Positions 3,511-41,281 of a stretch of 64,000 nucleotides of DNA are shown piece by piece (position 1 is the first letter of the stretch; each line of letters begins with the position of its first letter). The translations under genes and the position numbers were made by a program. Source of the DNA: Thermus sediminis (lineage in GTDB: Bacteria > Deinococcota > Deinococci > Deinococcales > Thermaceae); NCBI RefSeq assembly GCF_003426945.1, contig NZ_QURO01000003.1:1-64000 (forward strand), read 5' to 3'. Below the pieces are notes generated by a model. The model was not told the DNA's origin, ran no database searches, and saw only the letters and a program-made list of their open reading frames with translations.

Positions 3511-4476
3511 ATGCGCAGGGAAAGGCTGATCCCCCTCCTGGAGTGGGCCCGCAAGGAGGGCATGTCGGAGAGTCTAGCGCGGAAGTGGATTAGGGAGGGC
3601 CGGGTGGAGGCCGTTCGCCTGGGCCACTACTGGTACATCCCCGAGGTGGTGGACGGGCCCGAGCAGGGCACCCAGACCCACACCTTCTTCACCCACGCTG
3701 GGGGGGCGGGAAAGACCTCCCTGGCCCGCGACCTGGGGTTTGAGCTGGCCTCGAGGGGGTACCGGGTGCTCCTGGTGGACGCCGACCCCCAGGCCAACCT
3801 CACCGCCTGGTTGGGGGTGGACCCCAGCTCCGTGGCGGAGGAGGAGACCCTCCTCAAGGTCATCCGCCAGGACCTCCTTCCCCGCCCCAGGCAGGTGGGC
3901 CGGAACCTCTTCCTGATCCCCGCCTCGGTGAACCTGGCCGTGGGGGAGCTGGAACTAGACCGGAAGCCTCTGGGAGCCCTGGCCCTGCGCACGGCCCTGG
4001 AAAGGGTAGAGGGGGAGTACGACCTGGTGCTGGTGGACTCCCTTCCCTCCCTGGGTTCCCTGGCGGTGATGGCCGCCTTGGCGGGGGATGGCCTACTGGT
4101 TCCCGTGGAAACCGGCGCTAAGGGCATCCAGGCCCTAGGAGCGGTGGTCCAGGTGGCCAAGGAGTACCGGGAAGCCCTCCGGAAGGTGGATCCCGAAGGG
4201 GTGGCGGGCAGAAGCCACATCATCGCGGCCTTCATCCCCACCAAGTACGATGCCAGGACCCAGGGGGACAACCGCATCCTCCAGGCCCTCGGGGAGTTGG
4301 AGGACATCGCGCCCGTGGCCCCGCGCGTAGCCTACCGCCCTGGCCCTCACCGAAGGGCTACCGAAGGGCAGGTACCCATCCAGCTCACCGGGGATCGGGA
4401 GGCCGCCGAGGAGGTGGCCCAACTGGCGGACTTCCTGCTCAAGAGGGTGTTCCGCTTTGAGGAGGTGGTGGCGTGA
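3511..4476 (+). CDS. parA: ParA-family partition ATPase with N-terminal HTH
   Basis: A 321-residue protein. Residues about 5-47 form an excisionase/MerR-like helix-turn-helix (MSESLARKWIREGRVEAV), as in the larger type Ia ParA proteins that also repress the par operon. The ATPase follows: Walker A AGGAGKTS at 63-70 and VLLVDADPQANLTAWLG at 87-103. The signature lysine of the deviant Walker A box (KGGxGKT) is alanine here (A63), while the P-loop lysine K68 is kept. It partners with ParB to position plasmid copies. The ATG at 3511 directly follows a small dyad GGTAG-GCTT-CTACC (3497-3510), a possible autorepressor site. The stop overlaps the parB start (GTGA), so the two are translationally coupled. 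Confidence 0.9.
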   Translation: MRRERLIPLLEWARKEGMSESLARKWIREGRVEAVRLGHYWYIPEVVDGPEQGTQTHTFFTHAGGAGKTSLARDLGFELASRGYRVLLVDADPQANLTAWLGVDPSSVAEEETLLKVIRQDLLPRPRQVGRNLFLIPASVNLAVGELELDRKPLGALALRTALERVEGEYDLVLVDSLPSLGSLAVMAALAGDGLLVPVETGAKGIQALGAVVQVAKEYREALRKVDPEGVAGRSHIIAAFIPTKYDARTQGDNRILQALGELEDIAPVAPRVAYRPGPHRRATEGQVPIQLTGDREAAEEVAQLADFLLKRVFRFEEVVA

Positions 4477-5342
4477 GCGCCATCCGCGCCTACCTGAAGG
4501 GCCTGGTAGAGGAGGCCAAAAGCCCCGCCACATCCCACCTGCCCCTTTCAGCCCTCGTCCCAGAGGCCCAGCCCCGCAGGCGGTTTGAGGGCCTCGAGGC
4601 CCTCGCCGAGAGCATCCGGGAGAAGGGGGTCCTCCAGCCCCTCCTGGTGCGCCCCCTGGGGGACGGGCGGTACGCCATCGTGGCCGGGGAGAGGCGGTAC
4701 CGGGCGGCCCAGATGGCGGGCCTCACCGAGGTCCCGGTCCGGGTCCTGGAGGTCTCGGAGGGAGAGGCCCGCCTCCTGGCCCTGGTGGAGAACCTAGGGC
4801 GGGAGGACCTGAACCCCTACGAGGAGACCCTGGGGGTGCTGGAGCTCCTGTCGGAAGACTTGGGGAGGCGTAGGGAAGAGGTGGTGGCCCTCCTCCATCG
4901 GATGTGGAACGAGAGGAGGGGGAGGGTTACCCATAACGTTATGGGTAGCCCCGAGGCCCAGAGGGTGGAGGAGGTCTTCCGGGCCCTGGGGCGTATGGGA
5001 TGGGAGTCCTTCGTGCAAAACCGCCTCCCCCTCCTAGGGCTCCCTGGGGACCTGAGGGAGGCCCTAGAGGCGGGGGCCATCCCCTACACCGCCGCCCTGG
5101 AGCTCAAAAGGGTGAAGGATGGGGTCCTGAGGCGGGGGCTCCTGCAGGAGGCCAAGGTGGGGCTTTCCCTGAGGGAGCTCAAGGCCCGGGTGCGGGAGGC
5201 CCTGAGGCGGGAGAAGGCCCCTCCCCCCTGGCACAAGGAGGTGGCCCAGAGGCTCCTCCGGCTGGACCTCGAGGCCCTCCCCCCGGGGAAGCGGGAGGAG
5301 GTGGAGCGCCACCTCGAGGCCCTCCGCAGGCTCCTGGAGTAG
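4473..5342 (+). CDS. parB: ParB-family partition protein (CTP-dependent clamp)
   Basis: A 289-residue centromere-binding protein. Residues 22-100 hold the ParB/Srx nucleotide-binding fold with the box GERRYRAA at 72-79; residues about 105-220 hold the DNA-binding helices ([13 protein letters not shown] onward); the C-terminus should dimerise. The GTG start at 4473 overlaps the parA stop. The coding DNA contains an iteron-like sequence (4849-4865) and a perfect 20-bp palindrome (4928-4947) that could be parS. A truncated second copy of this gene lies at 19171-19554. The helicase gene starts nine bases after the stop, so transcription of parAB may continue into the defence-like cassette. Confidence 0.9.
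   Translation: MSAIRAYLKGLVEEAKSPATSHLPLSALVPEAQPRRRFEGLEALAESIREKGVLQPLLVRPLGDGRYAIVAGERRYRAAQMAGLTEVPVRVLEVSEGEARLLALVENLGREDLNPYEETLGVLELLSEDLGRRREEVVALLHRMWNERRGRVTHNVMGSPEAQRVEEVFRALGRMGWESFVQNRLPLLGLPGDLREALEAGAIPYTAALELKRVKDGVLRRGLLQEAKVGLSLRELKARVREALRREKAPPPWHKEVAQRLLRLDLEALPPGKREEVERHLEALRRLLE
4849..4865 (+). repeat. iteron-like sequence inside parB
   Basis: TGTCGGAAGACTTGGGG matches the oriV iteron core at 16 of 17 bases, on the same strand, within codons for LLSEDLGR. The truncated parB copy carries the same 17 bases at 19512-19528. Confidence 0.8.
4928..4947. promoter_or_regulatory. 20-bp perfect palindrome in parB, candidate parS
   Basis: TACCCATAACGTTATGGGTA is a perfect dyad in codons for THNVMG. 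Length and symmetry suit a ParB-binding centromere site, which in many plasmids and chromosomes lies in or beside parB. It could also be forced by a conserved peptide; its codons alone do not settle this. Confidence 0.45.
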
Positions 5343-5351
5343 GGGTGGGCC

Positions 5352-8119
5352 GTGGAGTTCAGGCTGGGCTCCCTCCTCACCTATCGGGACCGGTCCTGGA
5401 TCCTCGCCGACCGGGAGGGCCCCCTCCTCTTCCTCCGGCCCCTGGGGGGTGGGGACGGGGACCTCCTCCCCGTGCACCTGGACCTCCTGGAGGCCCTGGG
5501 GGAGGTCCTACCCCACGAGGGGCTCTCCCCCGCCGCCTTCCCCTCTCCGCCCCTTCGCCCCTGGCCTCCCCCCAGGAGCTCCGCCTCTTCCTCCAGGGGG
5601 CGAGGCTCCTCCTCCGGGATGGGACGGCCCCCCTCCGGGGCCTCGCCCGGGTGGGGGTGCGGCCCCGGCCCTACCAGCTCGTCCCCCTCCTCATGGCCCT
5701 CCGCCTGGACCCCGTCCGCCTCCTCATCGCCGACGACGTGGGCGTGGGGAAGACCGTGGAGGCGGGCCTCGTGGCCCGGGAGCTCCTGGACCGGAAGCTG
5801 GCCAGGAGGCTGGCCGTCCTGGCCCCCCCGCACCTCCTGGACCAGTGGGCGGAGGAGCTCCGGGAGAAGTTCGCCCTGGAGCCCGTGGTGGTCTCGGCGG
5901 GGAGCCTCGCCCGCCTGGAGCGGGGGCTTGCCTCGGGGGGGAACCTCTACGGGGGCCTCCAGGCCATGGTGGCCAGCATCGACTTCCTGAAGCACGACCG
6001 CCACCGCCCCCTCTTCCTGGAGGGGGCCCCCGACCTGGTCATCGTGGACGAGGCCCACGGGGCCGTGGGCGGGCCAAGCCAGGCCCTGCAGAAGCGGTAC
6101 GAGCTGGTCTGGGCCCTGGCCCAGGACCCTAGCCGCCACCTCCTCCTCCTCACCGCCACGCCCCACAGCGGCCTGCCCGAGGCCTTCGGCCGCCTCCTCG
6201 GCCTCCTCTCCCCCGAGTTCGCCGCCTGGGACCTGGCCCGCTTGGACGAGGCCAAGCGGATCCGCCTGGCGAGGCACTTCGTCCAGCGCACCCGCAAGGA
6301 CATCGCCGCCACCTGGGAGGGGGCCGCCCTCTTCCCGGAGCGGGAGGTGCGCTACGAGGGCTACCGCCTCTCCCCCGAGTACCGGGCCCTCTACGAGGCC
6401 GCCTACGCCTACGCCCGGGAGGTGGTGCGGCGGAGCGAGGGCCTGGCCGAGGGCCGGCGGAGGATGCGCTGGTGGGCGGCCCTCACCCTCCTGCGGGCGG
6501 TGATGTCCAGTCCCAGGGGCGCCAGGGCCTCCCTGGAGCGCCGGGGCGCCCCCCTGGAGGAAGAGGAGGCCCTCCTGGAGCTCGCCCCCCTGGTGGCGGA
6601 ACCGGCGGAGGGGGAGCCCATGGACGAGGTGCCCCAGCCCCTGCTCCACCTCGCGGAGGCCACGGGGGGGATGGAGGGGGCGGGCAGGAGGCGCCTCTCC
6701 GGGCTCAGGCGCCTGGTGGAGGCCATCACCCCCGAGAGGGACGGGAAGCTCCAGGGCCTCCTCCGGATTCTGGAGGGCCTCCTGCGGGAGGGGCACCACC
6801 CCGTGGTCTGGTGCCACTTCGTGGACACAGCGGAGTACGTGGGGGAGGCGGTGCGGGGCCGCTTCCCCGAGGCCCACGTGGCCGTGGTCACCGGGCGGAT
6901 GGACGGGGAGGCCAGAAGGGAGGCGGTGGAGGCCCTCATGGAGGAGTCCCCCCGGGTCCTGGTGGCCACGGACTGCGTCTCCGAGGGGGTGAACCTGCAG
7001 CGGGGCTTCACCGCCGTGGTCCACTACGACCTCCCCTGGAACCCCAACCGCCTGGAGCAGCGGGAGGGGCGGGTGGACCGCTACGGCCAGCGGGCGCGGA
7101 GGGTGGTGGCTGTCCGCTACCGGGGCCTGGACAACCCCGTGGACGAGAAGGTGGTGGAGGTCCTCTTGAAGAAGGCGGAGGAGATCCGCAAGGCCCTTGG
7201 GGTCCACGTCCCCGTGCCCGAGGAGGAGCGGTACGTGGTGGACCGGATGGTGCGGAGCCTCTTCTACGAGGGGGCCCAGCCCCTCCTCTTCGCCGAGGCG
7301 GACCTCCTGGAGGAGCGCTGGGGGCGGGATGTGGAGCGGGAGCGGGAGAGCCGCACCCGCTTCGCCCAGCGGGCCCTCCGCCCGGAGGAGGCCCTGGGGG
7401 CCCTGGAGGAGACCGACGCCGTCCTGGGAAGCCCCGGGGAGGTGGGGGAGTTCGTCCTCCTGGGGGCGAAGCTTTTGGGCCTCGAGGTGAGGGAGCGGGG
7501 CGGGGCCTACGAGGTGCGCCCCTCCTCCTCCCTTCCCGAGTCCCTCCGGGCCCTCTTCCCCGATGCCCGGGGCAGGGAGCGCTCCCTCCTCCTGGCCTTC
7601 ACGGACCCGCCCCCCGAGGGGGCCGCCTTCGCCGGGCGCACCCATCCCCTGGTGGTGGCCCTGGCCCGCCACTTTCTGGAGGAGGCCCTCCAGGGGAAGC
7701 GGGGGCGCTACGCAGCGAGGCGGGTGGCGGGCATCGGACGGGCCCACTACCTCTTCCTCCTCAGGTCCCGCTTCCTCCTCAAGGAGCGGGGGGGCGAGGT
7801 CCTCGGGGAGGAGGTGGACCTCCTGGGCTTGGGGCCAGAGGGCCTTCTCCCCCGGGAGGAAGTTCGGGCACTTGTGGAGCTGGAAGCGGCGGGCAACGTC
7901 TTTGCCGAGGAGGCCCAGGAGCTCCTCGCCCTGGCCCTGAAGCGGTACGAGGAGGCGAGGGGAGAGGTGGAGGGCTACCTGTGGAGGCGGGCCGAGGCGA
8001 TCCGGGAGGCCCACCGGGCCCTGAGGCGGGCGGCCAGGGAGCGGGTGGGGGACCTGGCGGTGGAACCCGTCCCACCCCCGGACCTGCTAGGGGTGTTGGT
8101 CCTGGTTCCGCAAGTGTAG
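5352..8119 (+). CDS. SNF2/DEAD-like helicase, DISARM DrmD-like (apparent 1-nt frameshift)
   Basis: A superfamily 2 helicase of about 920 residues. The GTG at 5352, nine bases after parB, opens the frame MEFRLGSLLTYRDRSWILADREG; it must shift near 5540-5543, where adding one C to a C4 run joins it to the long downstream frame. Helicase motifs follow: ADDVGVGKTVEAGL (about 5732-5770), VIVDEAHG (about 6041), LLTATPHSG (about 6149) and DLPWNPNRLEQREGRVDRYG (about 7030-7085). The GVGKTVEAGL form is typical of the SNF2-related helicase family that includes DrmD of class 1 DISARM. It probably translocates on duplex DNA as part of the cassette. The methylase gene starts nine bases after the stop. The frameshift may be a sequencing error in a homopolymer; if real, the gene is broken. 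Confidence 0.75.
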
Positions 8120-8128
8120 GAGGCGTGC

Positions 8129-11100
8129 ATGGCTAAGGGAATGCTTCCCCGTGAACTCCGCGAAGCCTACGAGGAGGCCATCCAGAGCCCCGGGCGGCAT
8201 GGGGCCCTCCGCCTCGAGGGCGGCCTCTTCGGCCCCGGGTTCCTGGCCCTCCTGGAGAGGGGAGAAGCGCCCTTCCAGTCCCCCAAGGACTTCGGCCTCC
8301 CCCGGGGTTCCCTCCAGGAGGAGATGGCCCTGGCCTACCGGGAGGCCAAGGCCCTCTGGCGCCTCTTCAGGGAGCGCCTGGAGGGGGTCCTGGGCACCGA
8401 GAGGGAGGGGGAGGTCACCCGGGAGCGCTGGGTGCGCCCCTTCCTCACCCTGCTGGGCTACCGCCTGAACTACCGGGGCCCCGCCCAGGCGGGGGGCAGG
8501 TCCTACCCCATCCTCTACCGGGCGGACGAGGGCCTCGAGGCTCCCCCCGTGCACGTGGTGCCCTGGGGCCAGGACCTGGGGCGGGCGGGGCGGGGGGCCG
8601 CTCCCCCCACGGCCTCCTCCAGGACTACCTGAACGCCTCCGAGGCCCTCTGGGGCCTGGTGACCAACGGAAGGGTCCTCCGCCTCCTCCGCAAGACCCCC
8701 TTTGTCCGGCGCCAGGCCTACCTGGAGGTGGATCTGGAGGCCCTCATGGAGGAGGACCGCTTCGGGGACTTCGCCCTGGTCTTTCGCCTCCTCCACCGCT
8801 CCCGCCTGCCCAAGGAGGCGGCCACGGCCCACGAGGCCCCCGTGGAGCGCTACCACCAGATGGCCGTGGAGCAGGGGGAGAGGGCCAGGGAGCGCCTTCG
8901 GGATGCGGTGGAGGCGTGCCTCCAGGAGCTGGGCACGGGCTTCCTCCGGGGGCCCTCGGGGGAGGAGCTCAAGGGGGACCCCAAGGCCCTCTACGAGGAC
9001 CTCCTCCGCCTCACCTACCGCCTCCTCTTCCTCCTGGTGGCCGAGGCCCGGGGGGTCCTGGGGGGGAACGGGCTCTACCAAAAGGGCTTCTCCCTCCACC
9101 GCCTCCTCCGCCTCTCGGAGAGGCGGGAGGCCTACACCGAGGACCCCGACCTCTGGCTCGGCCTCAAGACCCTCTTCGAACTCCTGAGGAACCCCAAGTT
9201 GACGGTGGGAGGAGGGCCCGCCGCCCGGGCCTTGGGCCTCGAGGTCCTGAACGGGGGCCTCTTCGGGACCCCCCTTCGCCTGGAGAAGCACCCCTTCGCC
9301 GTGGAAAACCGCTACCTCCTCTCCGCCCTCCGCCGCCTGGCCTTCGTGGACGACCCGGAGGAGAAGGCCCTCAAGCGGGTGAACTACGCCGCCCTGGACG
9401 TGGAGGAGCTGGGCTCCGTCTACGAAAGCCTCCTGGACAACGCCCCCCAGGTGGTCTGGAAGGGAGAGGGGTGGGCCCTGGAGTTCTCCAGGGGCATGGA
9501 GCGCAAGAAGACGGGGAGCTACTACACCCCTGACGGGCTGGTGGCCCTGGTCCTGGGGGAGGCCCTGGACCCGGTGGTGGAGGCGAGGCTCAAGGAGGCC
9601 GGGGAGGACCCGGAGGCCCAGGAGGAGGCCCTCCTCTCCCTCAAGGTCCTGGACCCCGCCTCGGGGAGCGGCCACTTCCTCCTAGGGGCCGCCAGGAGGC
9701 TCGGCAGGCGGCTCGCCCAGATCCGCACCGGGGAGGAGGAGCCCTCCTCCGAGGCCTACCGCCAGGCGGTGCGGGACGTGGTGCGGAACTGCCTCTACGC
9801 CGTGGACCTGAACCCCCTGGCGGTGGAGCTCTGCCGGGTGGCCCTCTGGATGGAGGCCCACGTCCCCGGCAAGCCCCTCGCCTTCCTGGACCACCGGGTG
9901 AAGGTGGGGAACAGCCTGGTGGGGGTCTTCCACCCGGGGGTCCTGGCCGGGGGGATTCCCAAGGCGGCCTACGAGCCCAAGGCCGGGGACGAGAGGGAGA
10001 GGGCCAAGGGGGCCAGGAAGGCCAACGAGATGGCCCTGAAAGGGATGCAGGACCTTTACCAAGCCGACTTTTCCCTCAGGAAGGAGGAGGAGGACTGGGC
10101 CAAGGTCCTGGAGGAGTTCGCCCGCCTTCCCGAGGACAGCGCCGAGCAGGTGGGGGCCAAGGCCCGGCTCTACGAGCGCTTGCGGGAAGGGGAGACCTTG
10201 AGGCGCCTCCACCTGGCCTCGGACCTCTGGACGGCGGCCTTCTTCCAGCCCCTCAAGGGAGAGGGGCCCTTCATCACCACGGAACACGCGTGGACGGTCC
10301 TGCGGGGTGGGGAGGTGGGCCCCGAGGTGGAGGCCCTGGCGCGGGAGCTTTCCCGAAGGCACCGATTTTTCCACTGGTGGCTAGAGTTCCCAGAGGTTAT
10401 GGAGAGGGGTGGGTTTGACGTGGTCCTGGGGAACCCGCCCTGGGGGCGGCTTTTGGACGAGGCATCGGCTGCCTTTGTCCGGGCTTCCGGCAGGTTCGAG
10501 CGCACGGCGGGGAGGCGCCCCAACACGTACCAGCTCTTCTTGGAGTTGGCGTGGGGGCTTCGCCGTCCCCGAGGTAGGGTGGGCCTTTTGGTCCCCACGG
10601 GCGTTGTGGCCGATGCCTCAAGCCAGCGCTTGTTCGCTCACCTGCTCCAAAGGGGAGCGATCCGACTCGTGGCGGACTTTGAAAACCGCCTCGGGTACTT
10701 CCCCCAGGTGGACAGCCGCTTTCGCTTCGCCCTGATCGTGTTGGGGAAGGGAGGCGGGAGGGGAGATGGGAAGGGAGGAAAAGAGGGAGAGGGGGAGGGG
10801 GAAAAGAGGGTGAGGGGGAGGAGCTCCTCGTGGCCACCTTCCTGAGGAAGCCGGACGACCTCCAGGACCCCCGCCGCCGCCTTCGCCTCAAGGGGGAAGA
10901 GATTCGCTTCTTCAATCCCCAAACAGGGGCGTTGCCCCTCTTCAGAACGCCTCAAGATAGGGCTCTAAACCGCAAGCTCTATGCTGGGGCCTGGGGGAAG
11001 CTGGGGAAGGGTTGGGGTATCAGAATTGTTCTGCCCTTCACTTCTGAACGAGGAAGGCACATCCATCCCTTAGACCCCATGGATGGGGCGGAACGCTCCC

Positions 11101-12077
11101 GTAGGGGGCATGTGTGGGAGTGGGGGGGTGAGCGCTATGTCACCTTCCTAGAGGCCAAGACCTTCCACCTCTTTGAGCACCGCCACGGGGAGGAGGACCG
11201 CAAGGACCCAAGCCGCCTCCTCGTTCCCCGCTATTTGGTGCGCCAAGAGGTCTTCCGCTCCCGGATGAGGGCCCTTGGCCTAGAGGACCGCCCCTGGTAC
11301 CTGGCTTTCAGGAGCGTGGCCAGGGCCACCGATGAGCGCACGGTGATCTCGGCGGCCCTACCGAGGACAGCGGTCGGGGGCAAGGCGCACCTCCTGGTCC
11401 TTCCCTTTCCCGGGCACCAGGCGCTTCTTTTCCTCGCCAATCTGAATGCGTTGGTCCTGGACTACGCCGCCCGCCAAAAGGTGGTTTCCACGGACCTGAC
11501 CGCTCCCGTGCTGGAACAACTTCCCTTTCTTCCTCCCTCGGCCTACGGGCCCGGGGATCTCCCTTACATCGTCCCCCGGGTCTTGGAGCTCACCTACACC
11601 GCCTGGGACCTGGCCCCCCTGGCCCAGGACGTGTGGGAGGGGGCGGAACCGGACCTGAGGGGGGCGATAGAGGCCTGGGCGAAGGGGGCCAGGCTCCACC
11701 CGGACACGCCCCCGGACTGGGCCCAAGGCCCCTACCCCTTCCCGCCCTTCGTCTGGGACGAGGAGCGAAGGGCCCTCCTCCGGGCCGAGCTGGACGCCTA
11801 CTATGCCCGGCTCTATGGCCTAGGCCGCAAGCAACTCCGCTACATCCTGGACCCCAAGGACCTCACCGAGGGGGAGCTAAAGGACATCCTTTCCGACTAT
11901 GAGGAGGTGGACGACCCCCTGGACGAGGAGGCCTACCAGAAGCGGGTGGAAAAGAGCACCTTCCCCGGCGAAACCTTCCGGGTGCTCAAGGACAAGGACC
12001 TGAAGCGCTACGGGAAGTACCGCACGAGGAGGCTGGTGCTCGAGGCGTGGAGGGATCTCTGCAGTAGGGGACCTTAA
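8129..12077 (+). CDS. Eco57I/DrmMI-like adenine methyltransferase (two apparent frameshifts)
   Basis: A class I N6-adenine DNA methylase of about 1316 residues once two breaks are bridged: one near 8592-8597 (G6 run) and one near 10815-10819 (G5 run). Each is restored by one added G. Motif [13 protein letters not shown] lies near 9652-9687 and motif IV GNPPW near 10428-10443. The C-terminal part (about 10830-12077) should hold target recognition. Size and architecture match the PglX/DrmMI/type IIG group that marks host DNA in BREX, DISARM and related systems. A polypurine stretch (10741-10829) encodes a Gly/Lys/Glu-rich linker just before the second break. It lies between two helicase genes, supporting a self/non-self marking role. 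ATG 8129 is chosen nine bases after the helicase stop. Confidence 0.75.
10741..10829 (+). other. polypurine low-complexity tract in the methylase gene
   Basis: Nearly all purines on this strand, with many G3-G5 runs. It could form triplex or G-quadruplex DNA, is prone to slippage, and directly precedes an apparent frameshift. Confidence 0.6.
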
Positions 12078-12085
12078 AGGGGGTG

Positions 12086-14017
12086 ATGCCGAGGGTGAAC
12101 GGGCAACTGGTGCGGTTGGCTCTGGAAAGGTTTGGTTTATCCACCTATGAGCTGGCGTCGCTCATGAACCTGGAAGCGAGGGGGATCCTAGGCCTTGCAG
12201 ATCCTTATCCCCGCCCTTATATCCCCTTCCAAGCCGACCTTCTGGCCTGGTTGCTGTCCGATGAGGAGGCGCAACAATACATCCGGTCTCCAAAGATAAG
12301 CGTGAATGGGATTGAGGTGCGAGGACACCTGCACCTGGAGGGCGCCACGGTGCTGAAGCCAGCAGAGTTCAATTGGTGCGATCTCCGTTTTGGAGTCTCT
12401 TTCAGGGGATCCAAAACAAGCTTTTTGACTTTCATATCGGTTTGGCTGGAAGACCTCCTTATGGATGGCGCAAGGGTGGAGGGACACTTCACTCTCCTCA
12501 AAAGCAGAATAGATGGCGTGATTTCTGCGGATTTTGCCACAATAGAGGGCGACTTCCGCTGTAAAGAGGTGAGCTTGAACCCCTCACCCAGAAAGCACAG
12601 CGGAACCGAGTACGCCATGCACGCCCCTCGCATCCAAGTAGGGGGGAACTTAGAGCTCAACGATTTAAAGGCCTGTGCACCTCTGTCCTTGCTTTCCGCT
12701 AAAATCGGAGGACAACTTATCCTAAAGGAAGTGGAGATAAAGGGTTGCGATGCTTCAGGGATAGCCTTGCAGGCCGACTACGTTAGGGGGGGAGGTCCGG
12801 TCTACTTGGAGAGAGTCATCTGCCATGGAGCGATACAACTGGCTGGGAGCGAGTTTGCGGGGCAGATGGTGCTGCGTGGCGTGAAGGTGCGAAGTTCCAG
12901 GGACCCCGCTCTGGCGGCTTCCGGGATCAGGGTTCGTGATGTCCTCGTAAGGGATGGCTTCTCTGCCGAAGGAGGCGTGAGGCTGGACGGCGGCCATATT
13001 GAGGGCAGTCTGAACCTTTCGGGGCTTTTCTCTGCCCCGGAGCCCCGCAGAGAGAGTGCGGCCCTCGACCTGAGCGGGTCTACCGTGGCAAGCCAGGTGG
13101 TGTTTGACACGTCCTTCCACTCTAAGGGGAAGGTGCGAATGGTTTCGACCCGGGTGGCGATTTCCGTGGCCTTCAGTGGAACGTTTGAAAATCCAAACGG
13201 GGAGGCAATAGAGGCGATCGGGATGAGGGTAGGGAATAGCGTGGGGTTCACCGAAGGTTTCTCCGTTCAAGGTCTCGTGAGGCTTTATGGCGCGGAGATT
13301 GTGGGAACCCTGAAGCTTGAAGGGGCGAGATGGGCAGAGGGGGACGATACCTGGCTCGACCTGAGAAACGCCCGCATAGGGACCTTGGCCGACAGCCCAG
13401 AGGCCTGGCCCAGCTTTGACATCTCCGGGGCGGTCTATGAAAACCTCGGGGACAAGGGCTGGACCGTTGACGAGCGCATCAGATGGCTTGGGCGGCAGAG
13501 GGTCTTCAGCCCTCAGACCTACGCGCAACTGGCCCAGACCTACTGGAGAAAAGGCGAGGAGGGTTCGGCGGTAAAAGTGCTCATAGCCAAGCAAAACGAG
13601 CGCCTCAGACGAGGAGGGCTCAGCCCAGCCTCGCGCCTTGGGCTCTGGGTGGCTAAGGTCACGATGGGTTACGGATACCGGTCCCATTACGCCCTGCTCT
13701 GGTTCATCGCCTTGGTGCTCATGGGTTGGACCGTCTACACCTACGCCTCTGAGAGGGGTTACCTCGTCCCCTCTGCTACGGCCGGGGAAACTGGGACGCT
13801 CTATCCCCTTTTGTACAGCCTAGATGTGGCCCTGCCGCCTCTGATAGACTTACACCAGGAGAGGCACTGGGCCCTTTCCACCGAGTCCCCTTTGGAGTTG
13901 CTCCTCTTTTTCTGGTTGCAGATCTTCCTCGGCTGGGTTCTAACAACGCTCTTTCTGGCCAGTATTTCCGGTCTGGTGAGGAGATTGAGTGAAGCGGGGA
14001 TCGGGGATAGGAGTTAG
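12086..14017 (+). CDS. membrane-anchored beta-helix protein inside the defence-like cassette
   Basis: A protein of about 643 residues with three parts. Residues 1-70 are a helical N-terminus. Residues about 75-450 are irregular short repeats of the type GxLxLxGAxIxG, expected to fold as a right-handed beta-helix like pentapeptide or bactofilin proteins. After a linker with the motif YAQLAQTYWRKGEEGSAVKVL come two transmembrane helices (about 533-555 and 603-625). This motif plus two C-terminal membrane segments resembles a family seen in actinobacteria, often poorly annotated. No enzyme motif is visible. It lies five to eight bases after the methylase and five bases before the next helicase, so it belongs to the operon. 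Its codon use looks less GC-biased than its neighbours, suggesting separate acquisition. GTG at 12083 is an alternative start. Confidence 0.75.
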   Translation: MPRVNGQLVRLALERFGLSTYELASLMNLEARGILGLADPYPRPYIPFQADLLAWLLSDEEAQQYIRSPKISVNGIEVRGHLHLEGATVLKPAEFNWCDLRFGVSFRGSKTSFLTFISVWLEDLLMDGARVEGHFTLLKSRIDGVISADFATIEGDFRCKEVSLNPSPRKHSGTEYAMHAPRIQVGGNLELNDLKACAPLSLLSAKIGGQLILKEVEIKGCDASGIALQADYVRGGGPVYLERVICHGAIQLAGSEFAGQMVLRGVKVRSSRDPALAASGIRVRDVLVRDGFSAEGGVRLDGGHIEGSLNLSGLFSAPEPRRESAALDLSGSTVASQVVFDTSFHSKGKVRMVSTRVAISVAFSGTFENPNGEAIEAIGMRVGNSVGFTEGFSVQGLVRLYGAEIVGTLKLEGARWAEGDDTWLDLRNARIGTLADSPEAWPSFDISGAVYENLGDKGWTVDERIRWLGRQRVFSPQTYAQLAQTYWRKGEEGSAVKVLIAKQNERLRRGGLSPASRLGLWVAKVTMGYGYRSHYALLWFIALVLMGWTVYTYASERGYLVPSATAGETGTLYPLLYSLDVALPPLIDLHQERHWALSTESPLELLLFFWLQIFLGWVLTTLFLASISGLVRRLSEAGIGDRS

Positions 14018-14022
14018 TCCGT

Positions 14023-17000
14023 ATGAGCGTCTTTGACCTCCATAAGAGGGCCGTTTCGGAGTACCAGGACTTCATCCGCTCCTTCGTTCACGTGGCTGAC
14101 GATCGCCTGAAGGCCTACGTGGAGGAGCGGATCCTGGGGGAGGCGGGTCACCTCTGGCCCGAGCCCCTGGTCCAGCTTTCCCCCGCCTACGAGCCCGGAG
14201 AGACGGTGGACGAGCTGGCCCAGGCGGGCCTCCTCCATCCCACCACCGCCCGGATCTTCCGCCGGGCCGATGGGTCTCCCTTCCGCCTCTACCGCCACCA
14301 GGTGGAGGCCATCCGGAGGACCAGGGAGGGGAGGAGCTACGTCCTCACCTCGGGGACAGGCTCGGGGAAGAGCTTCGCCTACTTCATCCCCATCGTGGAC
14401 CTGGCGGTCCGCCATCCTGGCCTGAAGGGTCCCCTGGCCCTCGTGGTCTACCCCATGAACGCCCTGGTCAACTCCCAGCTCCACGCCCTCGAGGAGCTCC
14501 AGCGGCGGTACGAGGAGCGCTACGGCCCCTTCCCCCTCCGCTTCGCCCGCTACACGGGCCAGACCGGCGAGGACAAGAGGCGGGCCCTCCGGGAGAATCC
14601 CCCCCACCTCCTTCTCACCAACTACGTCATGGGGGAGTACCTCCTGACCCGCCCGGAGGACCGGGCCCTCGTCTCCCCGCCCCCCTCCCAAGCCCCCTTC
14701 TTCCTGGTCTTCGACGAGCTCCACACCTACCGGGGCCGGCAGGGGGCGGACGTGGCCCTCCTGGCCCGGCGCCTCAGGGCCCGGATAGGGGAGAGGCCCG
14801 TCCTCCACGTGGGCACCAGCGCCACCCTCATCGCCCGGGAGGGGGCCACCCCTAAGGAGCGGCGGGAGGCGGTGGCCCGCTTTGCCTCCACCTTCTTCGG
14901 CGCGGACATCCCCCCGGAGGACGTAGTGGAGGAGGTCCTCCGCCCCGCCACCCGGGGAGGGCCCCCCTCGGAGGAGGAGCTTCGGGCCGGGGCCAGGACC
15001 CCCCTTCCCCGGGACCTCGAGGGCTTCCGCTCCCACCCTCTGGCCCGCTTCGTGGAGCACGCCCTGGGCCTGGAAGGGGAAGAGGGGGGGTACCGGAGGC
15101 GACGCCCCAGGCCCCTCTCCCAGGTGGCGGAGGAGCTCGCCAAGCGGGCGGGCCTACCCCCGGAGGAGGCCAAGGGGCTCCTGGAGGAGGCTCTCCAGGT
15201 GGGGGCGAGCCTGAAGGACCACGGCCGGCCCGTCTTCGCCTTCAAGCTCCACCAGTTCATCTCCCAGACCTCCGTGGTGCGGGCGAGCCTGGAGGCGCCG
15301 GAGGTGCGGGAGTTCGGCCATGAGCCTTTCAGCGAAAGCGGCAAGCTCCTCTACCCCCTCTACCTCTGCCGGAACTGCGGCCAGGACTACTACGCCGTGG
15401 TGGAGGCGGACGGCCGCTTCCTCCCAAACGAGGCCCTGGTGGGCGGGGAGGTGGAGGAGGGAGAGGTGGGCTACCTAGCCTTTGTTGAGGACTTCGATCC
15501 CCAAAGGGACCTCCCCGAGGGGTGGTTTGACCAGAGGGGAAGGCTCAAGTCTCCCTGGAGGGAACGGGCCCCCCGCCCCATCCGGGTGGACCTCGAGGGG
15601 AGAGTCCGGGAGGAGGGGGCTACCGAGGCCACCCTCTTCTACTACCAGCCCGCCCCCTTCAGCCTCTGCCTCCGGTGCGGGGCGGACTGGAGCGGCCAGG
15701 AGCGGGAGTTCACCAAGCTCACCTACCTGGGGAGCGAGGGGCGCACCTCGGCCACCACGGTCCTCGCCCTCTCCCTCCTCCGCAAGGCGAGGGAGGTCCT
15801 GGGGGAGGGGCGGGACAAGCTCCTCTCCTTCACCGACAACCGCCAGGACGCCTCCCTCCAGGCGGGGCACTTCAACGACTTCGTGCGGAGCGTGATGGTC
15901 CGGGCCGCCCTGGCCCGGGCCCTGGAGGCGAGGGGGGCCCTGGGCTACGAGGACCTGGCCCAGGAGGTCCTGAAGGCCCTCCCCATCCCCTTGCGGGGCT
16001 TCGCCCGCAACAAGAGGCTGGACGAGGGGAGCCAGGCCGCGCACCAGGTGCGGGAGGCCATGAAGGACCTCCTCCGCTACCGCCTCTACGTCGACCTCAA
16101 GCGGGGGTGGCGCGTCACCCAGCCCAACCTGGAGGAGGTGGGCCTCCTGGAGGTGGCCTACCCCTACGCCGAGGACCGGGCGTTCCTGGAGAGAGTGAGG
16201 GCGGGCTTCTTCCCCCACCTCTCCCTGGAGCATGCCCTCGAGGCGGTCCGCTTCTTCCTGGACCACCTGCGCAGGCGCCTGGCGGTGGAGACCCCCCTCC
16301 TCCAAAAGGAGGGCTTTGAGCGCCTGGTGAGGCGGACCGCGGAGCACCTGGACGAGTTCTGGGCCATCGACCCGTACACGGAGATCCCAGTTCTGGCGGC
16401 CGCCTTTTCCCCCGAGGGGGGAGGGCAGGTCTCCTTCTCCCCCAGGAGCCGGGCGGGGCGGGAGTTCGAGAAACGCTTCGGGGTGAGCCTCACCCCCGAG
16501 TTTCTCCGGGGCTTCACCGAACTCCTCCTGGCCCACGACCTCCTCCGGGAGGTGGAGCCAGGCCTCTACCGCATCCCCGAGTCCGCCCTGGAGTGGCGCC
16601 TGGGGGACGGCACTCCCCGGCACGACCCCCTGCGCTTCCGGGGACGGGGGGAGAAGCAGGCCAACCCCTACTTCGCCCGCCTCTACCGGGAGAGCGCCGA
16701 GGTCCTGGCCCGCCTGGAGGGGAGGGAGCACACGGCCCAGGTCCGCCCCGAGGAGCGGGAGGCCAGGGAGCGGCGCTTCCGCGGGGAAGAGGAGCCTAGG
16801 CTACCTTACCTGGTGGCCTCGCCCACCCTGGAGCTTGGGGTGGACATCGCCGACCTGGACGTGGTGCACCTCAGGAACCTGCCCCCCACCCCCGCCAACT
16901 ACGCCCAGCGGGTGGGGCGGGCGGGGAGGCAGGGGCAACCCGGGCTGGTGGTGGCCTTCGCCGGGGCCTTCTCCCACCACGACCGCTACTTCTTCGCCAG

Positions 17001-18948
17001 GCCCCAGGAGATGGTGGGGGGAAGCGTGCGCCCTCCCGCCCTCGAGCTGGCCAACGAGTCCCTCCTCCGGGCCCACATCCACGCGGAGTGGCTCTCTGCC
17101 ACAGGCCTCTCCCTCCGGGAGAGCATAGGGGACACGGTGAACGTCCAGGACCCCTCCCTCCCCCTCGACCCGGAGGTGGGGCGCCAGATCGCCCTTTCCC
17201 CCCAGGCCAGGGCGCGCCTCATGGTCCACCTGAAGCGGATCTTCGCCTACGACTGGGACCGGCTTTCAGGCACGGGCTGGTTTGGGGAGGCCTGGCTGGA
17301 GAGGGTGGTGGATGAGGCTCCCCTGGCCTTTGACCGGGCCTTCGACACCTGGCGCTTCCTCTACCGGGCGGCCATGGAGATGCGGGAACGGGGGCACAGG
17401 CTGGTGGAGTCCAGGCACAAGGAGGAAAGGGAGAGGGGAGAGGCCATGCGCCGGGAAGCGGAGCGCCAACTGAACCTCCTCCTGCAACGGGACGTGGCCA
17501 AGGAGGAGGGGGACTTCTACCCTTACCGCTACCTGGCCTCGGAGGAGTTCCTCCCCGGGTACAACCTCATGGCCCTTCCCGTGCGGGCGTTCATCCCTAG
17601 GGGAGAGGGGGAGTTCCTCCACCGCCCCAGGGAGGTGGCCATTGCGGAGTTCGCCCCTGGGGGTGTGATCTACCACGAGGGGGGGAAGTGGAGGCCCGTG
17701 GCCCTCTACGCCCCTCCTGGGGGGCTCAAGGGCCGCCTCTCCCAGGTCTGGATCTGCAAGGCGTGCCGGCACCTGTCCTCCCGGGAGAAGGAGGTCTGCC
17801 CAGGGTGCCGCGCTCCCCTGGCCGAGAAGGGCGAGCCCGTCCAGGTCCTGGACCTGGTGGGGGTGAGGACCCGGCGGCAGGAGCGCATCACCGCCAACGA
17901 GGAGGAGAGGTTCCGGGGAGGCTACTACCTGGAGGTGGCCTACGAGCTTCTGGAGAGGCGGCGGGCGGTGGCCCACCTGGAGGAGGGTGGCTTTACCTTG
18001 GTCTACGCCCCCTCAGCCCGGATCCACCACATCAACTGCGGCCTTCGGCGGTCCAAGGAGGAGGGCTTCTTCGTGGACCTGGACACCGGGGACCTCCTGG
18101 ACGGGGAGGAGGCCAGAAGGCGCGCTCAGGAGCCGAGGAGTGCGGTGGGGATGGGGAGGGTAGCCCTCCGGGTCCAGGTGGCCCAGAACGCCCTCCTCCT
18201 ACACCTGGGGGAGCTTTTGCAAGGGGAGCCCAGGGAGACCATCCTCTCCTTGGCCCTGGCCCTCAAGCGGGGGATGGAGGTCCACTTCCAGGTGGAGGAG
18301 CAGGAGCTGGGCCTCGTGGAGCTGGGCTCCACCCTCCTCTACTACGAGAGCGCCGAGGGGGGTCTCGGCATCCTTCGGCGCTTGGTGGAAGAGGAAGAGG
18401 CCTTGGCCCAGGTGGCCAGCACCGCCCTTGGGGTGCTCCACTTCTCCCAAGAGGGGGAGGACCTGAGGCCCGACTGTCACCGGGCCTGCCACGAGTGCCT
18501 CCTCTCCTACAGGGACCAGCGCCTGGCCCCCCTTCTCCACCGGCACCTGGCCCTCCCCTACCTGAGGCAGCTCCGAGGGGCTAGGGTCAGGCGCAAAGAG
18601 GGGGGTGGGCGGATGGAGGCCCTCCTGGCCAGGTGCCAGTCCCGGTTAGAGCGGGAGTTCCTCCGCCTCCTGGAGCCCAAGGGCGTCCGCCTACCCGACG
18701 AGGCCCAGTATCGGATCGGGGAGGCCCACACCGTGGTGGACTTCCTCTACCGCCCCAACCTCGTGGTCTACGTGGACGGGCCTCACCACGAGGGGGGTCG
18801 CCAGTCGGGGATCGACGAGCGCCAGCGGAAGGCCCTGCTGGAGCTTGGGTACAGGGTGGTGGTGGTGGGGTACGGGGACCTAGAGGCGGGGGTGGAGGCG
18901 GTGAGGAGGGCGTTGCTAGAGGCCCCTCCCGAAGGGGGGCTCCACTAG
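14023..18948 (+). CDS. giant helicase-DUF1998-nuclease fusion, DruE/DrmAB-like
   Basis: A 1641-residue protein. The N-terminal superfamily 2 helicase shows SGTGSGKS at 110-117, a DELH box near 230, an SAT motif near 265 and QRVGRAGR near 962. The C-terminal half has a cysteine cluster (CKAC and CPGC near 1245-1265) and a DUF1998 region ending in DCHRACHECLLSY near 1484. The last 100 residues add a Vsr/DUF559-like PD-(D/E)XK nuclease (VVDF near 1573, VVYVDG near 1583, then HHE). Helicase plus DUF1998 is the hallmark of Druantia DruE and of the DrmA/DrmB pair of DISARM, and of the MrfA repair helicases. The fused nuclease suggests direct DNA cleavage. It is the last gene of the cassette, five bases after the beta-helix gene. 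No frame break is seen. Confidence 0.8.
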   Translation: MSVFDLHKRAVSEYQDFIRSFVHVADDRLKAYVEERILGEAGHLWPEPLVQLSPAYEPGETVDELAQAGLLHPTTARIFRRADGSPFRLYRHQVEAIRRTREGRSYVLTSGTGSGKSFAYFIPIVDLAVRHPGLKGPLALVVYPMNALVNSQLHALEELQRRYEERYGPFPLRFARYTGQTGEDKRRALRENPPHLLLTNYVMGEYLLTRPEDRALVSPPPSQAPFFLVFDELHTYRGRQGADVALLARRLRARIGERPVLHVGTSATLIAREGATPKERREAVARFASTFFGADIPPEDVVEEVLRPATRGGPPSEEELRAGARTPLPRDLEGFRSHPLARFVEHALGLEGEEGGYRRRRPRPLSQVAEELAKRAGLPPEEAKGLLEEALQVGASLKDHGRPVFAFKLHQFISQTSVVRASLEAPEVREFGHEPFSESGKLLYPLYLCRNCGQDYYAVVEADGRFLPNEALVGGEVEEGEVGYLAFVEDFDPQRDLPEGWFDQRGRLKSPWRERAPRPIRVDLEGRVREEGATEATLFYYQPAPFSLCLRCGADWSGQEREFTKLTYLGSEGRTSATTVLALSLLRKAREVLGEGRDKLLSFTDNRQDASLQAGHFNDFVRSVMVRAALARALEARGALGYEDLAQEVLKALPIPLRGFARNKRLDEGSQAAHQVREAMKDLLRYRLYVDLKRGWRVTQPNLEEVGLLEVAYPYAEDRAFLERVRAGFFPHLSLEHALEAVRFFLDHLRRRLAVETPLLQKEGFERLVRRTAEHLDEFWAIDPYTEIPVLAAAFSPEGGGQVSFSPRSRAGREFEKRFGVSLTPEFLRGFTELLLAHDLLREVEPGLYRIPESALEWRLGDGTPRHDPLRFRGRGEKQANPYFARLYRESAEVLARLEGREHTAQVRPEEREARERRFRGEEEPRLPYLVASPTLELGVDIADLDVVHLRNLPPTPANYAQRVGRAGRQGQPGLVVAFAGAFSHHDRYFFARPQEMVGGSVRPPALELANESLLRAHIHAEWLSATGLSLRESIGDTVNVQDPSLPLDPEVGRQIALSPQARARLMVHLKRIFAYDWDRLSGTGWFGEAWLERVVDEAPLAFDRAFDTWRFLYRAAMEMRERGHRLVESRHKEERERGEAMRREAERQLNLLLQRDVAKEEGDFYPYRYLASEEFLPGYNLMALPVRAFIPRGEGEFLHRPREVAIAEFAPGGVIYHEGGKWRPVALYAPPGGLKGRLSQVWICKACRHLSSREKEVCPGCRAPLAEKGEPVQVLDLVGVRTRRQERITANEEERFRGGYYLEVAYELLERRRAVAHLEEGGFTLVYAPSARIHHINCGLRRSKEEGFFVDLDTGDLLDGEEARRRAQEPRSAVGMGRVALRVQVAQNALLLHLGELLQGEPRETILSLALALKRGMEVHFQVEEQELGLVELGSTLLYYESAEGGLGILRRLVEEEEALAQVASTALGVLHFSQEGEDLRPDCHRACHECLLSYRDQRLAPLLHRHLALPYLRQLRGARVRRKEGGGRMEALLARCQSRLEREFLRLLEPKGVRLPDEAQYRIGEAHTVVDFLYRPNLVVYVDGPHHEGGRQSGIDERQRKALLELGYRVVVVGYGDLEAGVEAVRRALLEAPPEGGLH

Positions 18949-37939: not shown

Positions 37940-39169
37940 TTACAATTCCCCTCGAAAGGCCTTGTCCAAAATCGCCTGCTCCAGACAGCCAAGCTCCTGA
38001 TCAGTCTCAGCCTGGGCTTCTTTTAGGGCGTGGAGTTTTCCCCACACTGCCTCAATCCGCGCCACGATGCGGCGCTGCTCTTCAAGGGGTGGGAGGGGGA
38101 GAGCGATTTGCTTGATTTTGCTTAGGCGAAGGGATGGATATGCAGGATTGTCAACATATTCGGACATATCAATTGTGCGTAGCCAGTAAAAGATCCAAAG
38201 TGAATCGACACCGGGATCGGGGGATACGGCAGCCAAATGAGAAACGATGTAGGCATCTACTCCCAAAACTGCACGAGAATTGGTTAAGATGGCGGCACCG
38301 CTTTTTGGAAAGAGAATGGCCCCCTTTGGGGCTTTAACAAGTGGCAATTCTTCTACCGCTCTTTCGTTAACTCTATCCGCAGTTTCCTTAAGATCTGTCG
38401 TTATCCCGTGCCGTCCTAAGTCTTGGACACGAACGAAGGGAAATTTGCCTTGTTCAAAATATTCCCTCCCTTGCGGCGCTGGCGAACCGCTGAATATCTT
38501 CGCCACCTCCCCCAATCTCACCCAGCGCCAGCCTTCGGGAAGTGCTGAGCCGGGGCGGGGGAAAGTGTGGGCGAGGACGGACTGCCAGAGGCGCTCGGCA
38601 TCCCTTTGGGCTTCTTGTCGCAGGCGGCGTGCCTCCCGCACCCGGCCCATCAGCTCCTCAATCCGCGCCACGATGCGGCGCTGCTCTTCAAGGGGTGGGA
38701 GGGGGAGAGCGATTTGCTTGATTTTGCTTAGGCGAAGGGATGGATATGCAGGATTGTCAACATATTCGGACATATCAATTGTGCGTAGCCAGTAAAAGAT
38801 CCAAAGTGAATCGACACCGGGATCGGGGGATACGGCAGCCAAATGAGAAACGATGTAGGCATCTACTCCCAAAACTGCACGAGAATTGGTTAAGATGGCG
38901 GCACCGCTTTTTGGAAAGAGAATGGCCCCCTTTGGGGCTTTAACAAGTGGCAATTCTTCTACCGCTCTTTCGTTAACTCTATCCGCAGTTTCCTTAAGAT
39001 CTGTCGTTATCCCGTGCCGTCCTAAGTCTTGGACACGAACGAAGGGAAATTTGCCTTGTTCAAAATATTCCCTCCCTTGCGGCGCTGGCGAACCGCTGAA
39101 TATCTTCGCCACCTCCCCCAATCTCACCCAGCGCCAGCCTTCGGGAAGCTTGTATGGTCCCTCCGTCAT
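37940..39169 (-). CDS. hsdS: type I restriction specificity subunit HsdS with two identical recognition domains
   Basis: A 409-residue specificity subunit. It has the usual two half-repeats, each a target recognition domain followed by a helical spacer, but both halves are the same: residues from LPEGWRWVRLGEVAKIF to EEQRRIVARIE occur twice. At DNA level 38050-38542 and 38656-39148 are identical over 493 bp. Normal HsdS has two different domains and reads a bipartite asymmetric site; this one should read a palindromic bipartite site. ATG 39169 (MTEGPYKLPEGW) is the natural start. It is downstream of hsdM, separated by a RAYT gene. Lower G+C than the plasmid backbone. Confidence 0.9.
   Translation of the reverse strand: MTEGPYKLPEGWRWVRLGEVAKIFSGSPAPQGREYFEQGKFPFVRVQDLGRHGITTDLKETADRVNERAVEELPLVKAPKGAILFPKSGAAILTNSRAVLGVDAYIVSHLAAVSPDPGVDSLWIFYWLRTIDMSEYVDNPAYPSLRLSKIKQIALPLPPLEEQRRIVARIEELMGRVREARRLRQEAQRDAERLWQSVLAHTFPRPGSALPEGWRWVRLGEVAKIFSGSPAPQGREYFEQGKFPFVRVQDLGRHGITTDLKETADRVNERAVEELPLVKAPKGAILFPKSGAAILTNSRAVLGVDAYIVSHLAAVSPDPGVDSLWIFYWLRTIDMSEYVDNPAYPSLRLSKIKQIALPLPPLEEQRRIVARIEAVWGKLHALKEAQAETDQELGCLEQAILDKAFRGEL
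38050..39148 (-). repeat. 493-bp perfect direct repeat within hsdS
   Basis: 38050-38542 equals 38656-39148 with an offset of 606 bases and no difference seen. Such identity means recent duplication or gene conversion. Confidence 0.9.
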
Positions 39170-39762
39170 CGGCAACCTCCTTGATGAAGAGATTGTTCCA
39201 CAGGTCATCCTCTCCTACCCGGAACGGGTTTTCTCTATCCAGGTGCCAGCGCAGGGGGTTCGTGGAGATGTATTCGCGGATGCGGCTCAAAGATTCTTCA
39301 TCCCGGATAATGTGTTCGTAATAATTGCGTTGCCACAATCGCCCTCGGTAGGGTGGCCATCCGGATGTTTTGACCCTTCGAATGTATTCCACCGTGACGC
39401 GGGATTTGAACGCGCCGACCACATGTCCCACCGTAGGGGCAACCCTTGTGGTTGCCCCAGCAGGGGCAGGCACGAGGCCTGCCCCTACGTGTTGGGTTAT
39501 GACAAGGATGCCGTGGATGTAGTTGGGCATAACCAATGAATGCGTCCAATGCTATGTGAGGAAACCGTTCCGGTATTCTTTCCCATTCGGCTACCACCAG
39601 GCGCCCAGCATCATTTAATCGCATTTCCCCATCCACCACATCACCAAATTGGCATGCTCGGTCCTGCGTGCAAATGATCACAAAGTAGGCGCCGGGCTGG
39701 CTATAATCGTAACCCTTAAGCCGAATGGACCGGCGATGGTGTCTTTCGGGATTAAAGCGCAT
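39060..39762 (-). pseudogene. RAYT (REP-associated tyrosine transposase) between hsdM and hsdS
   Basis: ATG 39762 overlaps the hsdM stop (ATGCGCTTTAA). MRFNPERHHRRSIRLKGYDY and GAYFVIICTQDRACQFGDVV are the usual RAYT opening. A frameshift near 39536 separates LDAF from VMPNYIHGILVIT. The HUH motif, normally HIH, reads YIH here, so one metal ligand is lost; the catalytic Tyr region NYYEHIIRDEESLSRIREYI is kept. Dead by both changes. The hsdS start lies within its 3-prime end. RAYTs are known to mobilise REP-type hairpins, of which this window has two families. Confidence 0.75.
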
Positions 39763-41272: not shown

Positions 41273-41281
41273 GGTATTACC

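Follow-up and report, generated by a model that had tools for sequence, protein, structure and literature searches.

ARMADA, first described in 2025 (Bell et al. preprint, PMC12458937), is a phage-defence system that combines a DNA methylase with two helicases. As set out in the available text of that preprint, the system combines a YprA helicase, a BrxHII-like helicase and a PglX-like methylase, and its ArmC protein ends in a Vsr-type nuclease. Further traits by which ARMADA is recognised are a BrxA-like insertion after RecA1 and a beta-barrel zinc module in ArmC, and phage protection that spares the cell. Archaeal and cyanobacterial Type I loci have the reversed gene order, and Type II has an additional GajB-like helicase, ArmD; in the same text, phage resistance is demonstrated for Type II and not for Type I (PMC12458937). 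The preprint terms ARMADA the missing link between DISARM and Druantia, and Thermus goes unmentioned in its main text (PMC12458937).

The locus considered here occupies positions 5352 to 18948 of the window, by which we mean the whole 64,000-nucleotide stretch of Thermus sediminis DNA that was analysed. The contig carrying the window is 83,316 bp long, the main contig of the same genome being 2.03 Mb, and this 83-kb contig is a plasmid. With a probability that we put at roughly 0.88, the locus represents ARMADA Type I with its genes in reversed order (armA-armB-armC), placed behind parAB on the plasmid. All of the genes lie on the forward strand. The parA gene (3511 to 4476), for a ParA/AAA_31 partition ATPase (Pfam AAA_31, 1.6e-29), is followed by parB (4473 to 5342; Pfam ParB_N, 8.8e-26), the final gene ahead of armA and one whose homologue also precedes armA in other Thermus loci. 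After a gap of 9 bases, armA opens with GTG at 5352 and ends at 8119, specifying an SNF2/BrxHII-like helicase with a Walker A motif (GVGKT) and DEAH in its translation. A further gap of 9 bases separates it from the ATG of armB (8129 to 12077), which encodes a PglX/Eco57I-like adenine methylase (Pfam Eco57I, 6.1e-22) bearing the SAM motif GSGHFLL and NPPW. A membrane gene then starts at GTG 12083 or ATG 12086, leaving a gap of 5 or 8 bases, and ends at 14017, 5 bases ahead of armC (14023 to 18948). The reading frame of armC is uninterrupted over 1641 aa and specifies a YprA/DruE-like DEAD helicase with an MZB/DUF1998 region (Pfam DEAD, 5.6e-19; Helicase_C; MZB) and a putative Vsr/DUF559-like C-terminus. 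The gaps of 9, 9, 5-8 and 5 bases after parB reported in an earlier note on this DNA all match the sequence coordinates, and profile searches matched the protein families that it had proposed, namely SNF2/Helicase_C, an Eco57I methylase, and DEAD with Helicase_C and MZB/DUF1998. Its account of four genes stands as to anatomy and spacing and fails as to intactness, since the SNF2 gene is broken by one frame change and the methylase gene by two.

Elsewhere on the same plasmid, the window holds a low-GC Type I restriction-modification set of HsdS, HsdM and HsdR (37940 to 43933), in which HsdR carries a carboxypeptidase-regulatory-like insert. At 58185 to 60089 it also encodes a 634-aa protein that weakly matches an NgoFVII/PLD restriction nuclease, adjoining a 614-aa protein with weak beta-propeller matches.

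Each of the three core proteins matches components of named systems. ArmA scores best in PADLOC with DpdE (492 bits), followed by DrmD (281) and BrxHI/BrxHII (233), and reaches 135 with RapA. ArmB matches DrmMI at 234.7 bits, in addition to N6_Mtase and Eco57I, and ArmC, which fuses DEAD, Helicase_C and MZB in one protein, matches DruE3 at 260.9 bits. The C-terminus of ArmC gives a weak DUF559 (Vsr-like) match (E 0.0017; 18.6 bits, under the Pfam cut-off of 20.6), with the motif VDFLYRPNLVVYVDGPHH. Against NCBIfam, the window proteins fall under the cut-offs for DrmD (317 versus 610), DpdE (200 versus 500), DrmA (18.5 versus 950) and DpdJ. An ArmD match is absent from the window and from the rest of the plasmid contig, and profile searches of the locus found neither BrxC nor PglZ adjacent to the cassette. 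The defence-like nature of the cassette and its DISARM/Druantia hybrid character, both proposed earlier, agree with ARMADA, which the available preprint text places between those two systems; the claim of an undescribed phage-defence type has to be given up, the three core genes being those of ARMADA (PMC12458937). A candidate new defence type is thereby removed, and a useful extension of ARMADA takes its place. PADLOC itself split the parts among DpdE, DrmD, DrmMI and DruE3 and returned no ARMADA name. Because PADLOC-DB 2.0.0 calls such parts DpdE, DrmMI and DruE, similar loci elsewhere have probably been mistaken for incomplete DISARM, Dpd or Druantia systems.

These scores also bear on whether the locus is a Class 1 DISARM or a Druantia with rearranged genes. 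The SNF2 protein does score with DrmD, the methylase with DrmMI and the giant helicase with DruE3, but separate DrmA, DrmB and DrmC genes are missing, the DrmD and DrmA scores stay under their NCBIfam cut-offs, no recognised Dru partner gene lies by armC, and the sister loci hold the ARMADA trio, all of which makes such a rearrangement hardly credible. Taken singly, the named systems were rejected as well. Class 1 DISARM was set aside on the fusion of helicase and DUF1998, the DrmA score and the lack of a PLD gene in the operon, and Dpd on the DpdE score and the lack of any modification gene found there. Druantia Type III was set aside for want of a DruH match: the genes around armC are armB and the membrane gene, along with ABC-transporter genes and a fragment of a transposase.

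In a tree of 18 ArmC proteins, that of the window groups (support 100/99) with those of D. radiodurans pMP1, Rhodococcus, Roseomonas, A. caldus, Paraburkholderia, Chlorohelix (Chloroflexota) and Planktothrix (cyanobacterial), and these relatives come from loci that contain the trio and lack an ArmD homologue; the clade takes in YprA-first loci. A separate clade is formed by the Thermus loci akin to that of T. thermophilus SNM3-3, which bears an ArmD-like gene, and E. coli ARMADA II and DruE III sit on long branches whose placement is unreliable. On this sequence comparison the window ArmC falls in the ARMADA Type I clade, apart from Type II, a label that rests on gene content together with a tree that holds no ARMADA reference set. 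The three-gene core occurs also in T. arciformis, T. aquaticus, T. thermophilus, the genome G021 and one unclassified MAG; T. brockianus has armA and armB, but no armC was found there. Judged by gene order, the recurrence of the SNF2-methylase-YprA arrangement in several Thermus species, the unclassified MAG and cyanobacteria is far beyond chance. It is the order of these three genes that is conserved among homologous loci, and not that of all four.

Type II-like ARMADA, with an ArmD-like UvrD gene after armC, was seen within Thermus as well (L047 2811-19216; L036), in T. thermophilus SNM3-3, where it adjoins BREX brxL and Csm CRISPR genes, and in G018. The ARMADA-like locus of Deinococcus radiodurans pMP1 (L041 12001-24975) has a split methylase, with ISDra3 inside.

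The position of the cassette recurs along with its content. In five Thermus loci armA lies close behind parB, with gaps of 9 bases in the window, 11 in T. aquaticus pTA78, about 50 in G021, about 80 in T. brockianus, where an IS lies near the armA start, and 180 in T. arciformis; in the latter four a parA homologue stands ahead of parB-armA. Other genes lie between the main parB and armA in T. thermophilus AA1-1 and TF28, and in both a fossil 3' end sits just ahead of armA (L026 10497-10706; L027 12464-12673), left from a parB that is closer to the ARMADA-linked type. The parB-armA junction is therefore old in Thermus, and the 3' end of parB looks like a point of cargo addition or exchange. 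The MAG locus gave no parAB match, no annotated non-Thermus locus has parB directly ahead of the cassette, and a position of ARMADA behind parAB in Thermus is not noted in the literature searched. The tie to plasmid partition suggested earlier held better than expected as a positional link (five Thermus loci and two T. thermophilus fossils), one that connects plasmid partition and defence in a conserved manner in Thermus. Judging from spacing alone, the cassette is probably transcribed together with parAB; a promoter and terminator scan, uninformative at such GC, found no sigma-70 site and fewer terminators than in shuffles.

The membrane gene (12083 to 14017) lies outside the conserved core. 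Its product is strand-rich (beta-helix-like) with two C-terminal transmembrane segments, placed by hydropathy at residues 537-555 and 602-632. AlphaFold2 modelling of the protein alone reached a pLDDT of 46.6, too low for a fold search, the low-confidence model being strand-rich from about residue 70 to 436 with a helical end. At usual cut-offs the gene matches no family in PADLOC, Pfam or NCBIfam, and no solved structure is similar to the protein by sequence. Its GC is 58%, lower than that of the sequence on either side (66% before the gene, about 70% after it). The gene is present in one of 27 Thermus genomes, that is, on the window plasmid only, and in 111 Deinococcota genomes the other match was a single weak, stop-ridden stretch of 81 residues; these searches rule out the membrane protein as a conserved component. 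Homologues at roughly 23-30% identity occur in Streptomyces, Rhodococcus, Rhizobium and others. Among the contexts examined, only that in Rhodococcus, between AbiEi/AbiEii and SIR2 genes, is clearly defence-like, and most of the other annotated contexts hold unrelated neighbours such as urease and ion transporters.

An undescribed four-part system in which the membrane protein is essential, for example as a membrane effector triggered by the helicases, would fit an intact gene spaced so tightly from its neighbours in the operon (5-8 bases to armB, 5 to armC), as well as the one distant homologue among Rhodococcus defence genes. However, all of the other Thermus core loci do without the gene, their slot being empty or otherwise filled, and the unrelated neighbours of most homologues with annotated context, together with a GC unlike that of the flanking genes, make a fourth essential part very improbable. 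From these comparisons the membrane gene is instead a passenger in a variable slot, and one that the core would not need. In G021 and AA1-1 no gene separates armB from armC; T. aquaticus and T. arciformis have related genes of 231-237 aa there, and the MAG has antisense genes. Among cyanobacteria, Planktothrix carries DUF2887 and Uma2 genes in this slot, Dolichospermum a gene for a VapC-type toxin, and Pseudanabaena PIN and 3'-5' exonuclease genes. For the 237-aa slot gene of T. arciformis, Pfam and NCBIfam gave no match and the PDB none of significance; by eye a D..EVK nuclease motif may be read in it. The armB-armC slot is a place to look for accessory effectors.

Neither armA nor armB is spanned by any single ORF in the T. 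sediminis assembly. A net -1 frame change lies near 5550 in armA, and armB passes from its first to its second frame near 8594 and to the third within 10745-10830; the ORF at 10830-12077 is the C-terminal part of the methylase and no separate gene. In T. arciformis each of the two genes consists of one uninterrupted ORF, 922 aa long for armA and 1326 aa for armB. Past its break, armA is 83% identical to the intact 922-aa protein, and the armB pieces align colinearly with the 1326-aa protein. Because these frames are broken in the assembly, the T. sediminis copy may be inactive, and the locus could be a decayed, non-functional ARMADA relic retained solely for following parAB. Decay would agree with the density of the breaks, since three frame changes within the 6.7 kb that armA and armB cover exceed the chromosomal rate of the same assembly. 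A control set 400 kb of T. sediminis chromosome against 800 kb of a relative and found 4 frame changes among the 65 chromosomal genes (84 kb) matched to the relative, one of which seems to be located in the reference instead, leaving 3-4 in 84 kb. Decay would agree also with the copies of T. brockianus and T. thermophilus TF28, which are broken by insertions. The breaks of other relatives fall elsewhere, near residue 446 of armB in AA1-1 and in two places in armC of T. aquaticus, the latter not far from the cut point of the deposited circle.

Several observations argue against a relic. The armC frame is wholly open, and dN/dS against T. arciformis is 0.25 for armA past the break, 0.31 for armC, and 0.32 and 0.23 for the two larger segments of armB, with 0.66 over a short stretch of 133 codons; before and after the breaks alike, most segments fall within 0.23-0.35. 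These ratios say that the arm genes have, by their substitution pattern, been constrained until recently, and they are compatible both with errors and with real breaks. Frame changes were also seen in ilvB and in an aconitase/LeuC-type gene (names by eye; G000:C4, about 74640 and about 2020), and since these are conserved chromosomal genes, base-calling indels are likely in the assembly. On balance a relic is unlikely, if deserving of serious consideration, and any further broken gene of the window is best interpreted with assembly indel errors in mind.

The last break in armB coincides with a polypurine tract at 10744 to 10821, which holds a 23-bp tandem repeat in 2.6 copies (TRF rows 10744-10778 and 10761-10821) and may be a contingency tract or a sequencing trouble spot. 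Some defence methylases are known to undergo phase variation. Because 23 is not divisible by three, a one-copy change would shift the armB frame, making a switch possible that turns armB on and off. Such a switch would account for a reading frame that shifts across the tract and for a repeat that is missing from the armB genes of T. aquaticus, T. brockianus and T. arciformis, but the other two frame changes (5550 and 8594) lie outside repeats of this kind, and a sequencing error in the polypurine run is an equally simple explanation; only a single isolate has been seen. A base-calling error in this stretch is as likely as a repeat switch, and phase variation is on the whole rather doubtful. 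A broader scheme, in which Thermus plasmids keep ARMADA Type I in their partition operon, swap accessory effectors (nucleases, toxin-antitoxins, in the window a membrane protein) in the slot and switch ArmB by the repeat tract, is improbable when taken as a whole; if it were true, plasmid partition and immunity would be expressed together.

Six Thermus ArmB proteins were compared, those of AA1-1 and the window being pieced together across breaks, and their pairwise identity is 68-89% over residues 1-780. Over residues 800-1130 it is mostly 33-48%, except for window/T. aquaticus (75%) and AA1-1/G021 (69%); this drop marks a putative target-recognition region at approximately 10500 to 11490. AA1-1 and T. 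arciformis share 97.5% identity in ArmA and 95.7% in ArmC, and only 40% in the ArmB recognition region, and the recognition-domain classes cross lineages. This region is mosaic, the pattern expected of swapped target-recognition domains, which supports a putative self-marking role for ArmB. With these natural variants, methylome sequencing could be used to test the target of ArmB.

On the model of ARMADA, DISARM and BREX, ArmB would methylate adenines at sites specified by its recognition domain, thereby marking self DNA. ArmA may serve as a translocase, and ArmC as a helicase that bears a zinc-binding canopy and ends in a Vsr-like nuclease; both would engage unmodified DNA as it enters, unwind it, and then degrade or block it, such that incoming DNA would be stopped without host killing. 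Lying 9 bases behind parB, the cassette would be made wherever the plasmid is kept. The thermophilic ARMADA copies are suited to structural work.

How the locus stands among the named systems can be followed gene by gene. Dpd shares a DpdE-like SNF2 helicase, the best PADLOC match of armA, but the window protein falls under the NCBIfam DpdE cut-off and the DpdJ match is weak. Druantia Type III has a similar DruE-like giant helicase; it differs in having a DruH partner and PLD ends and in lacking an SNF2 helicase or a methylase. Class 1 DISARM offers DrmD-like and DrmMI-like genes, but has its own separate DrmA, DrmB and PLD nuclease DrmC, none of which is at the window locus. ARMADA Type II, as in E. 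coli NCTC 12900 and, by the present analysis, T. thermophilus SNM3-3, has the armA-armB-armC order in common with the window, and differs in the GajB/UvrD-like ArmD after armC and in an ArmC of another clade. ARMADA Type I shares the BrxHII-like helicase, the PglX-like methylase, the YprA-like helicase and the absence of ArmD, and the window has the reversed order found in archaea and cyanobacteria; at the ArmC end, where ARMADA has a Vsr-type nuclease, the window protein gives a weak Vsr-like match. What sets the Thermus locus apart from it is a place directly behind parAB and a variable armB-armC slot, occupied in the window by the membrane protein.
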